NCBI GenBank assembly: GCA_945889005.1
Contig: CAMDBI010000018.1
Span: forward strand, 1-64,000
DNA length: 64,000 bases
Reading direction: 5' to 3'
Origin: Bacteroides fragilis
Lineage (GTDB): Bacteria; Bacteroidota; Bacteroidia; Bacteroidales; DTGW01
A program made the translations under genes and the position numbers. The notes under the pieces are model-generated. The model was given only the letters and a program-made list of their open reading frames with translations. It did no database searches and was not told the origin of the DNA. Positions 3,406 to 8,809 of this stretch are shown here, piece after piece (the stretch's first letter is position 1; every line of letters begins with the position of its first letter).

Positions 3406-3969
3406 TTATTCTCTAATTATTTTTATTTCTCCTTTTAGTCCAAGTTTAATGATACCTGAAGGCTTTGTTTTGTGGGTGTCGTCTTGTCTCCAGCCAACAA
3501 CAAAATCGACCGATTTTTTAATTTCATCTGATATATCATCGAAATTTGATGGTACTGGCATGTTGCTAATGTTTGCAGAAGTCGATACTATTGGTTTTTT
3601 GAAACGCGTAATTAGTTTTTGGCAAAATTCGTCGCTCGTTACTCTTATGCCAATACTGCCATCTTCGGCGATTAAATTTTGAGCCAGATTAATTGCGCCC
3701 GGGTAAATGATGGTAAGGGGTTTGTTTGACATGCTAATTAAATCGTCTGCCATGTCGGGTACCTGACGAAGATATAAGCTTAACTTGTCTATATGATCGA
3801 TAAGAGCGAGCATGTTTTTGTTGTTGTCGCGCTTTTTTAATGCATATATTTTGCTAACAGCTTTGTCGTTTGTAGCATCGCAGCCAATCCCCCATACGGT
3901 ATCGGTTGGATAAAGTATTGTGCCGCCTTTTTTGAGCACTTCAATGGCTTTCTGAATATCGTCGTTCAT
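3406..3969 (-). CDS. tsaC: Threonylcarbamoyl-AMP synthase (Sua5/YciO/YrdC family)
   Basis: This 187-residue single-domain protein belongs to the Sua5/YrdC family, which makes threonylcarbamoyl-AMP from threonine, bicarbonate and ATP for the t6A37 modification of ANN-decoding tRNAs. The N-terminal signature GGTILYPTDTVWGIGCDA and the KKRDNNKNM nucleotide-binding loop are present. STSAN near residue 130 is the other diagnostic motif. The protein lacks the C-terminal Sua5 extension, so it is TsaC-like. Its start codon overlaps the stop of the upstream glycosyltransferase gene (TAATG), which indicates translational coupling on the minus strand. Confidence 0.92.
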   Translation of the reverse strand: MNDDIQKAIEVLKKGGTILYPTDTVWGIGCDATNDKAVSKIYALKKRDNNKNMLALIDHIDKLSLYLRQVPDMADDLISMSNKPLTIIYPGAINLAQNLIAEDGSIGIRVTSDEFCQKLITRFKKPIVSTSANISNMPVPSNFDDISDEIKKSVDFVVGWRQDDTHKTKPSGIIKLGLKGEIKIIRE

Positions 3970-5084
3970 TAGGTGAGCTTTTCGTAAAGATTCATAAGGT
4001 TACGGGCTATGTGGTCTTGTCGGAATTGTTGCGCGTGAGCGAAGCCGTCGAGAATTATTTTACTGCGTAATGCCGAATCATTAAGTACGGTTTTTATTGC
4101 TTCGGCAATTTCGGCGGGCCATTCGGGATTAATATAAATTGACGATTTGCCTCCCGGTTCCGAGAAACAACTTCCCTTACTTGTAATGACAGGAACTTTA
4201 GAATTTAATGCTTCGAGTATGGGGATGCCAAAGCCTTCGAACAACGAGGGGTAAACGAAAACTTTTGCCATTTGATAAATAGCCGGTAAATCTTCGTTTG
4301 GAATGTTGTGGTAAAAAAATATGTTTCTTATTTTTTTCTCGAGTACATAGTTTACAACCGATTTAATATAGTTGGTTGCTCTGCCAACGACAACAAGTGG
4401 TTCTTGAATTTTTCCGATGTCAATGGCTTTAACGATGTTTAAAAGGTTTTTTCGTTCCTCAATTGTACCCACGTAGAGTATGAAATTGCTGGGAAGGCCG
4501 TATTTGCCGCTAACATCGGCTTTTTCTTCTAATGAAACATTTCTGTAAAAATTAGGATTGCAACCTTGGTAAATTACCTCAATCTTTTTTTCGTCAGCCT
4601 TGAGAAATTTAATTAAATCTTCTTTTGTTTGCTTGCTTACAGCAATTACTTTGTTGGCATGTTTGGCTGCCAGCGAAAATTTTGTTTCGTATATTTTTCG
4701 GTCAAAATATTTGTAATATTGAGGATACCTGAAAAATATTAAATCGTGAATAGTTACAATCGATGGTGTTTTTGCTTTTTCGATATGAGCCGGAAGTTCG
4801 TTGCTCAATCCATGATACAGATCTAGCTTGTCCTTTTTTATTTGTTTCGACAAGGTGTATGATCGCCAGTACCATTTGTTCTTCTTCTCGAGCCAGGTTT
4901 GAGGACCTCTCAAATTCAAACGGTCGAAATTGACAAATGGTTTGGAGTTTTCAATTTCGGGAGTATACAGTACATAGTCGTTGAAAGGGTAGTACTGGCA
5001 GAGCAAAGAGATGGTGTCGCGACTATAGTTACCTAAACCACTTGTGTTGAAAAATGCTCTTTTAGCGTCGAAACCTATTTTCAT
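3969..5084 (-). CDS. Glycosyltransferase, GT4 family (GT-B fold)
   Basis: This 371-residue glycosyltransferase has the GT-B layout. The N-terminal domain contains DLYHGLSNELP and VTIHDLIFFRYP. The C-terminal nucleotide-sugar domain has ILYVGTIEERKNL and the E-x7-E motif at E283/E291 in FEGFGIPILEAL. GT4 enzymes transfer sugars with retention, usually to lipid-linked or surface polysaccharides; donor and acceptor cannot be read from the sequence. It is the first gene of a two-gene unit, and its stop overlaps the tsaC start by one base. No other polysaccharide genes are adjacent. Confidence 0.88.
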   Translation of the reverse strand: MKIGFDAKRAFFNTSGLGNYSRDTISLLCQYYPFNDYVLYTPEIENSKPFVNFDRLNLRGPQTWLEKKNKWYWRSYTLSKQIKKDKLDLYHGLSNELPAHIEKAKTPSIVTIHDLIFFRYPQYYKYFDRKIYETKFSLAAKHANKVIAVSKQTKEDLIKFLKADEKKIEVIYQGCNPNFYRNVSLEEKADVSGKYGLPSNFILYVGTIEERKNLLNIVKAIDIGKIQEPLVVVGRATNYIKSVVNYVLEKKIRNIFFYHNIPNEDLPAIYQMAKVFVYPSLFEGFGIPILEALNSKVPVITSKGSCFSEPGGKSSIYINPEWPAEIAEAIKTVLNDSALRSKIILDGFAHAQQFRQDHIARNLMNLYEKLT

Positions 5085-5178: not shown

Positions 5179-6411
5179 TTATATTCCGGCTTTTTTTAAT
5201 CGATCCATAGCTTCCAATACGTTTTCGCGTGCGGCAAAAGCCGAGAATCTGAAATAACCCTCGCCCGAAGGACCAAAGCCCGATCCGGGAGTGCCAACAA
5301 TGTTAACCTCGTTGAGCAACTGGTCAAAGAAATCCCACGATTTAGTATTGTTTTTTGTTTTTAGCCATACATAAGGAGCATTTTCGCCACCAAAAACCGT
5401 AAAGCCTAATGTTTGTAGGCTTTCTTTCATAATGCGCGCGTTCTCCATGTAGTAGGCAATAGTTTCTTTTACTTCCTGTTGCCCTTGTTGGGTATATATT
5501 GCGGCAGCGGCTCGTTGTACGGGATAAGAAACACCGTTAAATTTTGTTGTTTGGCGACGCAACCACAGACTATTCAATGGGTGTTTGTTTCCTTTGCTGT
5601 CCGATGCCATCAATTCTTTGGGAACTAATGTGTAAGCGCAGCGAGTTCCAGTAAACCCAGCTGTTTTTGAGAAACTACGGAACTCAATGGCGCATTTTTG
5701 GGCGCCTTCTATTTCGTATATCGAATGTGGAATACTCGGATCGGTAATGTATGCTTCGTAAGCAGAATCAAATAATATTATAATGTCGTTTTTTAATGCA
5801 TATTCGACCCATTTTTTCAACATTTCGCGACTAGCTGTCATGCCGGTTGGGTTGTTGGGGAAACACAGATACACGATGTCGACTTTTTCTGAAGGTAATG
5901 CAGGTACAAAATTGTTGGCATCGTTACATGTCATATATGTTACGCCTCGGTAGTAGCCGTTTTCCATAGCTTCGCCAGTGCGACCATCCATAACGTTGGT
6001 GTCGTTGTATACCGGGTAAACAGGATCGGGTATCGCTATTTTATTTTCTTTGCCAAGTATATCGAGTATGTTGCCTGTGTCGCATTTCGATCCATCAGAA
6101 ATAAATATTTCGTCCAAGGCAATTTTTATGCCACGACTTTCGTAGTCGAACTTTGCAATGGCTTCGCGCAAGAAATCGTATCCCTGCTCTGGTCCATAAC
6201 CCTTAAAAGTTTCTACTTTGCCCATTTCGTCTATAGCATCGTGAAATGCTTTGATTACTGAAGGGACTAGGGGTTGGGTTACATCGCCAATACCCATGCG
6301 AATTATTTTTGCATCGGGGTGCAAAGTTTGAAATGCTTTTACACGTCGTCCTATTTCAGGAAATAAATATCCTGCTTTGAGTTTTAGATAATTCTCGTTT
6401 AGAAATGCCAT
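5179..6411 (-). CDS. dapL: LL-diaminopimelate aminotransferase
   Basis: This 410-residue fold-type I PLP enzyme makes LL-diaminopimelate from tetrahydrodipicolinate and glutamate in one step, bypassing the succinylase and acetylase routes. The N-terminus [20 protein letters not shown] is typical of DapL. The PLP lysine is K249 in [19 protein letters not shown] lies near residue 184 and DSAYEAY near 215. The gene diverges from dapF across 143 bases, and lysA follows dapF, so the three genes cover the pathway from tetrahydrodipicolinate to lysine. A TATATTTG box on this strand at 6443-6450 is a possible -7 element. Confidence 0.94.
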
Positions 6412-6554: not shown

Positions 6555-7412
6555 ATGGAAAAGAATAATTTTTTTGTGAAATCTCATGGATTAGGTAACG
6601 ATTATATTGTGTTAGACGAAGCTAATCTTAGTTTTGAGCTTGATGCGCATTTGATTCGTATTATTTGCGATTACCACTATGGAATTGGTTCCGATGGAAT
6701 TTTGCTAAAAGTACCTTCGATAAGAGCCGATTTTGGTTTGCGTATTTTTAATCCCGACGCTTCGGAAGCCGAAAAGAGTGGCAATGGACTTCGTATTTTT
6801 TCGAAATATCTTTACGATTACGGTATTGCTCAAAAGAAAACTTTTACCATAGATACTCCTGGGGGAGTTGTACATTCTTCGATTATTGAAGATTTTAATG
6901 GTAAAGCATCAATGGTATCGGTCGATATGGGTAAGGCTATTTTCAGTTCGTCGCTTATACCCGTAAAAACCGACAAATCAACGTTTATCAACGAACCATT
7001 GATGATTTTTAATAAAGAATATCATGTTAATTGTGTGTCGGTTGGAAATCCGCACTGTGTAATAATTAAAGAAAATCTTGATATCGACGAGATTAAGAAA
7101 TATGGACCGTATATAGAGTCAAATCATATTTTCCCGAACAAAATTAATGTTCAATTTGCAAAAGTACTTAACGATCACGAAGCTGAGATCATAATTTGGG
7201 AGCGTGGAGTAGGTTATACTTTAGCTTCGGGAAGTTCTGCGTCTGCTGTTGCCTCGGTGCTTCATAAACTTGGGTTGGTTTGCCCCAATGTCGATATACA
7301 CATGAAGGGCGGGGTGCTCAAAATCAATATCGACGATGTGTTCAATATTACCATGACAGGCCCGGTGAAACAAATTGCCGAAGGTTTTTTGAGCAGTGAA
7401 CTTTTCAGTTAA
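6555..7412 (+). CDS. dapF: Diaminopimelate epimerase homologue with both catalytic cysteines replaced by serine
   Basis: This 285-residue protein is collinear with DapF, the cofactor-independent epimerase that converts LL- to meso-diaminopimelate. Family landmarks are kept: HGLGNDYIVLD near residue 11, GIGSDGILL, NPDASEAE, SGNGLR (75-80), VGNPHC and WERGVG (215-220). The canonical enzyme uses two cysteines, in the motifs (M)CGNG and ACGTG. Here the codons are AGT (S75, EKSGNGLR) and TCG (S225, LASGSSAS), so both acid/base thiols are serine. Surrounding residues are well conserved, so this is not a decayed gene. Position between dapL and lysA argues that it works in lysine/peptidoglycan synthesis. 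It may instead belong to a functionally distinct subgroup of the fold. Confidence 0.85.
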   Translation: MEKNNFFVKSHGLGNDYIVLDEANLSFELDAHLIRIICDYHYGIGSDGILLKVPSIRADFGLRIFNPDASEAEKSGNGLRIFSKYLYDYGIAQKKTFTIDTPGGVVHSSIIEDFNGKASMVSVDMGKAIFSSSLIPVKTDKSTFINEPLMIFNKEYHVNCVSVGNPHCVIIKENLDIDEIKKYGPYIESNHIFPNKINVQFAKVLNDHEAEIIIWERGVGYTLASGSSASAVASVLHKLGLVCPNVDIHMKGGVLKINIDDVFNITMTGPVKQIAEGFLSSELFS

Positions 7413-7549: not shown

Positions 7550-8809
7550 ATGAGTACAAAAATAATACCTTTTTCATTTAGTCAGATTCAGGATGTAATA
7601 GCAAAGTATCCAACGCCTTTTCATATTTACGACGAAAAGGCAATTCGTCTAAACGCTCAATATGTCAATAAAGCATTTTCGTGGAACGAAGGTTTTAAAG
7701 AATATTTTGCAGTGAAGGCTTTGCCAAATCCATATATTATGAAGGTGTTGAAAGAAGAGGGTTTTGGGTCTGATTGTAGTTCAATGGCAGAGCTTATTTT
7801 GTCGGAAAAAATAGGTGTAGTTGGCGACAATATTATGTTTACCTCGAACAATACTCCCGAATATGAATATAGAAAAGCTAAAGAACTAGGAGCAATTATC
7901 AATTTGGACGATGTTAGCCATATATCGTATTTGGAAATGAATTGTGGCTTGCCCGAGTTGCTTTGTATGCGCTATAACCCTGGCTCGCTCAAAGAAGGCA
8001 ATGCCATTATTGGGCATCCCGAGGAAGCGAAATATGGTTTTACACGCGAACAACTTATTGAAGGATATAGAATTGCTAAAGAAAAAGGTGTGAAACGATT
8101 TGGATTACACACCATGGTAGCTTCAAATGAGCTCGATTCGGCATATTTTGTCGAAACAGCCGAAATACTTTTCGATTTGGCTGCCGAATTGACCAAAAAT
8201 CTTGGAATTGAATTTGAATTTGTTAATCTTGGAGGAGGTATAGGTATACCTTATCTCCCTGAGCAAAAGCCGGTCGATCTTATGTATGTTAGCCAAGGAG
8301 TGCAGAATTTATACAAAAGCAAAATCGAGGGAAATGGCTTGAAACCATTGAAAATATTTCTCGAATCGGGGCGTATGATTACCGGACCTTATGGCTACTT
8401 GGTTACAAAGGTTGAACATATTAAAAAAACCTACAAAAATTATGTGGGTTTAGATTCAAGTATGCAAAACCTTATGCGTCCTGCTCTGTATGGTTCTTAT
8501 CATCATATAAGCGTTATGGGAAAAGAAAACCAGCCGCACGATTTTGTGTGTGATGTAACAGGTTCGTTGTGCGAAAACAACGACAAATTTGCCATTGATC
8601 GCGTTTTGCCAGAACCACAACAAGGCGATATCGTAGTTATACACGACACCGGAGCTCATGGTTTGGCAATGGGTTTCAATTACAACGGAAAGCTTCGTTC
8701 GGCTGAACTTATGCTTCGACCCAATGGCGATGTTACTCAAATAAGACGTGCCGAAACTATGGACGATCTTTTTGCTACTTTGGATTTTGAAGGATTGAAA
8801 AAGTTCTAA
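7550..8809 (+). CDS. lysA: Diaminopimelate decarboxylase (LysA, divergent subtype)
   Basis: This 419-residue fold-type III PLP decarboxylase converts meso-diaminopimelate to lysine. The PLP lysine is K56 in FAVKALPNP, the phosphate loop is GGGIG at 228-232, and the active-site partner motif is C341-E342 in SLCENNDKF. The usual HIGSQ segment is replaced by HTMVASN (187-193), so this is a side branch of the LysA/ornithine decarboxylase family. The substrate assignment leans on its place 137 bases after dapF. A TATCTTTG box at 7421-7428 could give it a separate promoter. The spacer is AT-rich with repeated CAATAATCAATATT words. Confidence 0.85.
   Translation: MSTKIIPFSFSQIQDVIAKYPTPFHIYDEKAIRLNAQYVNKAFSWNEGFKEYFAVKALPNPYIMKVLKEEGFGSDCSSMAELILSEKIGVVGDNIMFTSNNTPEYEYRKAKELGAIINLDDVSHISYLEMNCGLPELLCMRYNPGSLKEGNAIIGHPEEAKYGFTREQLIEGYRIAKEKGVKRFGLHTMVASNELDSAYFVETAEILFDLAAELTKNLGIEFEFVNLGGGIGIPYLPEQKPVDLMYVSQGVQNLYKSKIEGNGLKPLKIFLESGRMITGPYGYLVTKVEHIKKTYKNYVGLDSSMQNLMRPALYGSYHHISVMGKENQPHDFVCDVTGSLCENNDKFAIDRVLPEPQQGDIVVIHDTGAHGLAMGFNYNGKLRSAELMLRPNGDVTQIRRAETMDDLFATLDFEGLKKF

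Follow-up and report, generated by a model that had tools for sequence, protein, structure and literature searches.

The window, i.e. the complete stretch of 64,000 nucleotides analyzed here, contains a dapF homologue in which both catalytic cysteines of diaminopimelate (DAP) epimerase are replaced by serine (Table 1). DapF is the standard example of a thiol/thiolate two-base mechanism, in which a thiolate acts as the base and a thiol as the acid, both at the N-termini of helices. Either serine can serve in this essential enzyme of cell wall and lysine synthesis, or the pathway departs from the textbook. We favor, with a probability of about 60%, the reading that the Ser/Ser protein is a sole-copy epimerase converting LL-DAP to meso-DAP, with Ser75 and Ser225 as proton acceptor and donor; we infer its activity and the roles of the serines and of the adjacent Lys74, whereas the residues, their conservation, the sole-copy status, the exchange with Cys/Cys DapF and a predicted DapF fold are results of the analysis.

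Table 1. The dapF homologue of the window, its diagnostic codons and the adjacent genes.
Feature	Position	Strand	Basis
dapF homologue, Ser/Ser subfamily, 285 aa	6555..7412	+	ORF; TIGR00652; PF01678; AlphaFold2 model
Lys74 codon AAG, clade-specific, beside Ser75	6774..6776	+	sequence comparison
Ser75 codon AGT, aligned with catalytic Cys73 of E. coli DapF	6777..6779	+	sequence, alignment
Ser225 codon TCG, aligned with catalytic Cys217 of E. coli DapF	7227..7229	+	sequence, alignment
Ser228 codon TCT, clade-specific; glycine in Cys/Cys proteins	7236..7238	+	sequence comparison
dapL, LL-diaminopimelate aminotransferase, divergent upstream neighbor	5179..6411	-	TIGR03542, 633 bits (cut-off 364.7)
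lysA-like diaminopimelate decarboxylase gene, downstream	7550..8809	+	TIGR01048, 291.4 bits (cut-off 297.9)

The window protein is a DapF by family models, fold and substrate residues, but not an ordinary one. It scored 228.3 bits with TIGR00652 (cut-off 114.65) and 183.6 bits with PF01678 (cut-off 34.7), and 92 of 269 aligned residues are identical to E. coli DapF in a global alignment. Unchanged residues include the seven substrate-binding positions compared (Asn11, Asn64, Asn75, Asn157, Asn190, Glu208 and Arg209, E. coli numbering), which are also invariant across the Ser/Ser sequences, as well as Gly74, His159 and Gly218. The catalytic pair Cys73/Cys217 is absent. Instead, Ser75 and Ser225 are found within the motifs EKSGNG and LASGSS, and alignment with the E. 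coli enzyme confirmed the initial annotation in this respect. The protein also departs from the PROSITE signature of DapF, N-x-(DN)-(GS)-(SENGFT)-x(4)-C-(GI)-N-(GA)-x-R as quoted in PMC8225329. The window sequence NPDASEAEKSGNGLR deviates at Ala69 and Ser75, and nearly all other Ser/Ser sequences, which read NPDGSEAEKSGNGLR, deviate at the cysteine. Because both the catalytic pair and the signature are lost, the protein is classified as a variant. TIGR00652 accepts Ser/Ser genes despite the failed active-site signature, and the puzzle is therefore easily overlooked. The model of the bifunctional DapF/glutamate racemase, NF038284, was not matched (68.3 bits, cut-off 350), nor was the Pfam proline racemase family; PF01678 was the only match at E values up to 0.001.

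The distribution of the Ser/Ser form was assessed by several searches. Among 41 genomes of the family and order of the window's host, 37 yielded a match, and the best 30 distinct loci were taken. Ser/Ser residues occurred in three of these genomes (G001, G003 and G004) and Cys75/Ser225 in a fourth (G008), while the other 25 loci read were Cys/Cys. A scan with the window protein as single query retrieved nothing, but an alignment of four Ser/Ser sequences, run against an 84,980-species genome collection, retrieved 213 relatives; the search peptides contained no catalytic motifs. The best 80 of these 213 relatives, with 56-64% identity, were all Ser/Ser (80 of 80 loci read). They span Prolixibacteraceae and other Bacteroidota, Rhodocytophaga, Ignavibacteriae/Chlorobiota and Hydrogenothermaceae (Sulfurihydrogenibium, Persephonella), together with a Spirochaete, a Syntrophomonadaceae and a Clostridiales bin. 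Several hosts are bins with possibly incorrect names; isolates include Draconibacterium orientale with a complete chromosome. Ser/Ser DapF thus occurs in Bacteroidota, Aquificota, Ignavibacteria/Chlorobiota, Spirochaetota and Bacillota. An even sample of 395 Bacteroidota genomes contained only one further close relative (G118, Ser/Ser), which indicates that the form is a minority in this phylum overall. The Bacteroidota phylum search kept 30 loci including the window (L113); residues were read for 14, and the remaining 16 (L119-L122, L127, L128, L130, L132, L133, L135-L141) were excluded from the count.

A plasmid search with the window protein returned only relatives below 60% identity. A Ser/Ser homologue with the motifs MSGNG and PASGSG is located on plasmid NZ_CP108679.1 of Streptomyces sp. 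NBC_01216 (L262, L295; dapF OG393_RS34325). In this protein ERG at the substrate Arg/Glu site is changed to RAA (L262), and the gene cluster also encodes a 2OG-Fe dioxygenase, a molybdopterin oxidoreductase, an aldo/keto reductase, an aminotransferase and an ornithine cyclodeaminase. It looks like a separate case belonging to specialised metabolism. Intended as an outgroup and kept outside the 100 sequences considered below, L262 grouped with the Ser/Ser clade, but its branch is too long (2.63) to be trusted.

The pooled alignment comprised 105 Ser/Ser rows (100 distinct genes, five of them fetched twice), 83 Cys/Cys rows, mostly from Bacteroidota and Aquificota, and one Cys/Ser row. Both serines are invariant in all 100 distinct Ser/Ser sequences, for which the lowest pairwise identity is 49%. 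The codon class is fixed as well, with AGY for Ser75 and TCN for Ser225 in 105 of 105 rows each. The pattern is what a single origin of each serine would leave, with one nucleotide substitution in a TGY cysteine codon and no later loss. At a neutral or decaying site, drift to threonine, cysteine and other residues one step away would be expected. Chance or sequencing error was rejected as an explanation, as related loci from other records are Ser/Ser throughout (80 of 80, and 100 distinct sequences in all). A pseudogene or decaying copy was likewise rejected in view of the open reading frame and the recurrence of both serines in 100 distinct sequences.

Trees built without the catalytic columns and loops support a deep clade, the existence of which the initial annotation had raised as a question. 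In a tree of 73 rows, 37 Cys/Cys rows lie on one side of a branch with an SH-aLRT value of 99. In a more careful tree of 44 rows, Ser/Ser and Cys/Ser proteins together are split from six Cys/Cys rows with a support of 100/100, while the branch with 37 Ser/Ser rows on one side reached only 64/79. The Cys/Ser form deserves mention in its own right. The DapF of G008 (L005/L161) has the motifs ENCGNG and LASGSS, with Asn74 and a TGT codon for Cys75, and it is the sole DapF of this 98% complete genome. A second Cys75/Ser225 protein (L281, genome G531) is encoded at the same contig place. This form is either an intermediate on the way to Ser/Ser or a reversal from it.

The initial annotation had described everything around the catalytic sites as conserved. 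This holds for the substrate-binding residues, but the immediate surroundings differ, with Lys74, Ser75, Ile81, Ser225 and Ser228 being the positions at which Ser/Ser and Cys/Cys proteins are completely separated. Of the 100 distinct Ser/Ser sequences, 99 contain Lys74, whereas none of the 83 Cys/Cys sequences does; 82 of the latter harbor methionine or leucine at this position. Ile81 is likewise found in 99 of 100, at a position with cysteine in 80 of 83 Cys/Cys proteins, and Ser228 occurs in 100 of 100 where all 83 Cys/Cys proteins contain glycine. Position 221 is aromatic in every Ser/Ser protein and mostly glutamate in Cys/Cys proteins. E. coli DapF harbors glutamine at position 74 and glycine at 228. 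The co-variation is correlative and reflects a small number of evolutionary events. Lys74 is lacking from a single Ser/Ser sequence (L104, with Ile74), which belongs to a genome, G460, that also encodes a Cys/Cys DapF, and the clade member with Cys75 has Asn74. Position 74 is part of a loop that curves around the substrate (PMC12039745). Lys74 is a candidate helper because of this position, its absence alongside Cys75 and the Cys/Cys DapF in the host of L104. If the serines are the bases, we regard such a helper role as having even odds.

The same observations would also fit a mechanism in which Lys74 itself is the true base on one face and Ser225 that on the other, with Ser75 as a helper. A Lys/Ser pair of this kind, Lys-57 and Ser-82, is used by the PLP enzyme serine racemase (PMC8142540). 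However, Ser75 is invariant, though it would be free to vary as a bystander, and the loop residues make no hydrogen bonds to the ligand in the solved enzymes (PMC12039745). We therefore consider Lys74 unlikely to be a base. All 100 Ser/Ser sequences share two further cysteines, Cys160 and Cys168, which occur in only 5 and 1 of the 83 Cys/Cys sequences, respectively. They flank the conserved GNPH loop and might be thought to replace the lost thiols. However, E. coli and Arabidopsis enzymes that retain both catalytic cysteines harbor one or both of them (the cysteine of NPHC in E. coli, both in Arabidopsis), and they are thus no obvious substitutes. Furthermore, the predicted model places them in two strands around Asn165/His167 and not before the two catalytic helices. 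A relocation of the thiol function to this pair appears highly improbable.

The AlphaFold2 model of the window protein, based on 44 clade sequences, has a pLDDT of 94.1 and shows the two-domain DapF fold. Helices are predicted to begin at positions 76 and 226, directly after Ser75 and Ser225. Foldseek and VIA-align identified DapF entries as the nearest structures, with 8qzy at a Z score of 37.3 and an rmsd of 1.8 over 272 residues. Among the best structural matches were also the laboratory mutants C73S and C217S of Haemophilus influenzae DapF (2q9h, 2q9j), which carry serine at the same places. Unlike the natural Ser/Ser enzymes, these are single artificial changes without the clade-specific residues, and mutants of this type serve to slow catalysis (PMC12039745). 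The strict conservation of the serines and the changed neighboring residues would fit an enzyme adapted to hydroxyl bases, an adaptation that the laboratory mutants lack.

In Aquificota the two forms replace each other one for one. An even sample of 61 genomes of this phylum was surveyed and the residues were read in all of them. Exactly one DapF was found in 61 of 61 genomes, 42 being Cys/Cys and 19 Ser/Ser (16 plus G440, G443 and G451 with the genes L043, L049 and L074); no genome had both and none had neither. In the 73-row tree, the Ser/Ser proteins of Aquificota are placed inside the Ser/Ser clade and the Cys/Cys proteins of the same phylum far away. This indicates that the two forms replaced each other within Aquificota, probably by gene transfer. 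In the order of Draconibacterium, 54 of 59 genomes contain exactly one DapF, of which 50 are Cys/Cys, 2 Ser/Ser, 1 Cys/Ser and 1 shortened by a contig end. No DapF match was obtained in the other five (G528, G543, G561, G573 and G585), which may rely on meso-DAP dehydrogenase or have gaps in their assemblies. A different reaction, one of the explanations proposed in the initial annotation, is disfavored by the exchange in Aquificota together with the conserved substrate residues.

The copy number was examined in 42 genomes, 36 of which were picked from the 80 loci for spread and for isolates and 6 from genome searches. Ser/Ser DapF is the sole TIGR00652 match in 37 of these, including the window's own genome, and the Cys/Ser form is the sole match in G008. 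A second DapF elsewhere, one of the options of the initial annotation, is excluded within the limits of the assembly, since the window's genome contains one PF01678 gene and one TIGR00652 match; a missed copy is unlikely at a completeness of 99.42%. More than one DapF was found in four bins (G460, G461, G465 and G466), each with a Cys/Cys copy. G466 may be a mixed bin, as it also has two MurE over the cut-off. The Ser/Ser copies of Prevotella and Paludibacter (L107, L112) are sisters in the 44-row tree with a support of 99/95, so the coexistence of both forms is possibly real there, and the function of the Ser/Ser gene may differ in these cases. G460 and G466 additionally encode fusions of the large chain of carbamoyl-phosphate synthase (CarB) with a C-terminal DapF domain. 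The fusion of G466 (L152, 3174-7214, minus strand, 1347 aa) has Ser/Ala at the catalytic places (KMSGNA, LAAGTSA) and that of G460 (L155, 305-4351, plus strand, 1349 aa) has Phe/Cys (EMFGNA, ACGTGA). The lost catalytic cysteines suggest another role for the fused domain.

Other sources of meso-DAP were also considered. Replacement by a meso-DAP dehydrogenase was rejected, as the domain PF16654 is absent from 42 of 42 genomes. LysA matches were found in 38 of 38 sole-copy genomes, 25 of them over the cut-off, which indicates that meso-DAP is needed. MurE was over the cut-off in 40 of 42 genomes, the exceptions being G118 and G462, and its DNPR motif was present in 30 of 30 loci read; this motif alone does not distinguish meso-DAP from LL-DAP. 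The 99% complete genome G118 (L162) encodes a Ser/Ser DapF and MurI but no MurE over the cut-off, with two weak Mur-ligase-like matches (best E value 3e-10). It may lack ordinary peptidoglycan and use DAP for lysine only. A role as glutamate racemase was rejected, since MurI is present in 37 of 38 sole-copy genomes and the window's genome has a separate MurI. Alr was detected over the cut-off, with one match each, in 37 of 38 sole-copy genomes and was missing in G004 (83% complete). This counts against a PLP-dependent substitute of the DapF2 type, with the reservation that several Ser/Ser Bacteroidota show weak extra alr-like matches.

These data bear on the alternative that epimerase activity has been lost or changed, and that meso-DAP is formed by an unrecognised enzyme such as a DapF2-like PLP racemase, or that an LL-DAP wall is combined with an altered LysA. 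Cys-to-Ser substitution nearly abolishes the activity of relatives (PMC11602996 and PMC8225329), and for Staphylococcus and others a PLP-dependent DapF2 has been put forward (PMC9026213). The LysA of the window is slightly below its family cut-off, four genomes retain a Cys/Cys DapF beside the Ser/Ser form, and the weak alr-like matches in some Ser/Ser Bacteroidota point in the same direction. However, the window's genome and all Hydrogenothermaceae-type genomes searched have a single Alr match, and canonical LysA proteins with 532-566 bits occur in 10 Aquificota Ser/Ser genomes, G462, a fragmented bin, being below the cut-off. Moreover, the exchange among the 61 Aquificota genomes would demand a hidden replacement in each Ser/Ser case, and a non-catalytic protein would be unlikely to retain both serines and all substrate residues. 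Loss or change of activity is thus considered improbable, and the Ser/Ser protein is very probably a working DAP epimerase.

The position of dapF between dapL and lysA, noted in the initial annotation, was borne out by TIGR03542 over its cut-off and TIGR01048 just under it. The genome contains a second LysA-like gene (G000:C26:46045-47265; 223.6 bits, below the cut-off), and many of the searched Bacteroidota genomes likewise harbor a pair of LysA-like genes. In the set of 80 loci, dapL (more than 300 bits to that of the window) is present in 35 and lysA (more than 200 bits) in 36, with at least one of them in 59. One of the two directly adjoins dapF in 46 loci, counting L082, whose dapF was missed by ORF picking, as non-adjacent. 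The proposed link to DapL therefore applies to many Bacteroidota loci but not to Aquificota, whose loci have neither gene near dapF; the Ser/Ser form is thus independent of dapL adjacency. A glycosyltransferase-like gene (3969-5084, minus strand) is located near dapL in the window, followed by a 187-aa ORF that appears by eye to be of the Sua5/YwlC type. Of the loci compared, 38 have a relative of the first gene near dapF and 32 a relative of the second, frequently in the order dapF-lysA-glycosyltransferase-like/187-aa pair.

In the mechanism proposed for the Ser/Ser epimerase, the DapF fold and its grip on the substrate would remain unchanged. Ser75 and Ser225, each positioned just before a helix on one of the two active-site halves, would serve as the proton acceptor and the proton donor. 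The pair, possibly assisted by lysine, would remove a proton with a pKa near 29 from an amino acid and re-add one on the other face. Lys74 beside Ser75, and Ser228 and the aromatic residue 221 near Ser225, would probably make up for the lower acidity of the hydroxyl group. The arrangement may have evolved stepwise, with Cys/Ser forms like that of G008 as possible survivors of the path. Given a working epimerase, the serines are probably the direct bases. The broader proposal of a branch-wide, thiol-free and cofactor-independent epimerase, either Ser/Ser or Lys-assisted, that arose stepwise and passed between phyla while displacing Cys/Cys DapF, is in our estimate as apt to be wrong as right. 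The hydroxyl group of serine is much less acidic than a thiol, and cysteine is preferred for its lower pKa (PMC8142540). Cys-to-Ser mutants of PddB had activities below 0.1% (PMC8225329), those of HisR were greatly reduced (PMC11602996), and Cys-to-Ala mutants of Corynebacterium glutamicum DapF were almost dead (PMC5296763). These nearly dead mutants of relatives, together with the Cys/Cys DapF in 4 of 42 genomes, argue against the Ser/Ser epimerase. A hydroxyproline epimerase of the proline racemase superfamily uses serine and cysteine as bases (PMC4113996, in which text and legend differ in accession and cysteine number) and would provide, by analogy, an example of a hydroxyl group acting as a base in this fold.

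If the reading is true, a natural sole-copy Ser/Ser form would mean that the thiol is not required, and it would provide a natural control for the handling of protons on weak carbon acids by proteins. DapF is a proposed antibacterial target, and covalent inhibitors attack its cysteines. The Ser/Ser form would also identify bacteria expected to escape DapF inhibitors directed at cysteine. No description of a natural Ser/Ser DapF was found in searches of the open-licence PMC literature.

Compared with known systems, the Ser/Ser form shares fold, length and substrate residues with canonical DapF (TIGR00652, PF01678; E. coli, H. influenzae, Anabaena and Arabidopsis), as well as the dapL and lysA neighbors and the place of a sole copy. 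It differs in the serines for both cysteines and in the residues that change in step with them, Lys74, Ile81, the aromatic residue 221 and Ser228. The Ser/Cys hydroxyproline 2-epimerases have a related fold (Z about 24-27) and a natural serine as one base (PMC4113996), but they have lost one cysteine only, act on another substrate and show 12-20% identity in structural alignments. The aspartate/glutamate racemase EcL-DER belongs to a different fold family. It is natural and cofactor-independent and harbors threonine for one catalytic cysteine, but unlike Ser/Ser DapF it has lost only one cysteine and works in one direction (PMC8142540). DapF2 of Staphylococcus has likewise been proposed to substitute for canonical DapF (PMC9026213), but it is an alanine-racemase-like PLP enzyme whose sequence is unrelated to that of Ser/Ser DapF.
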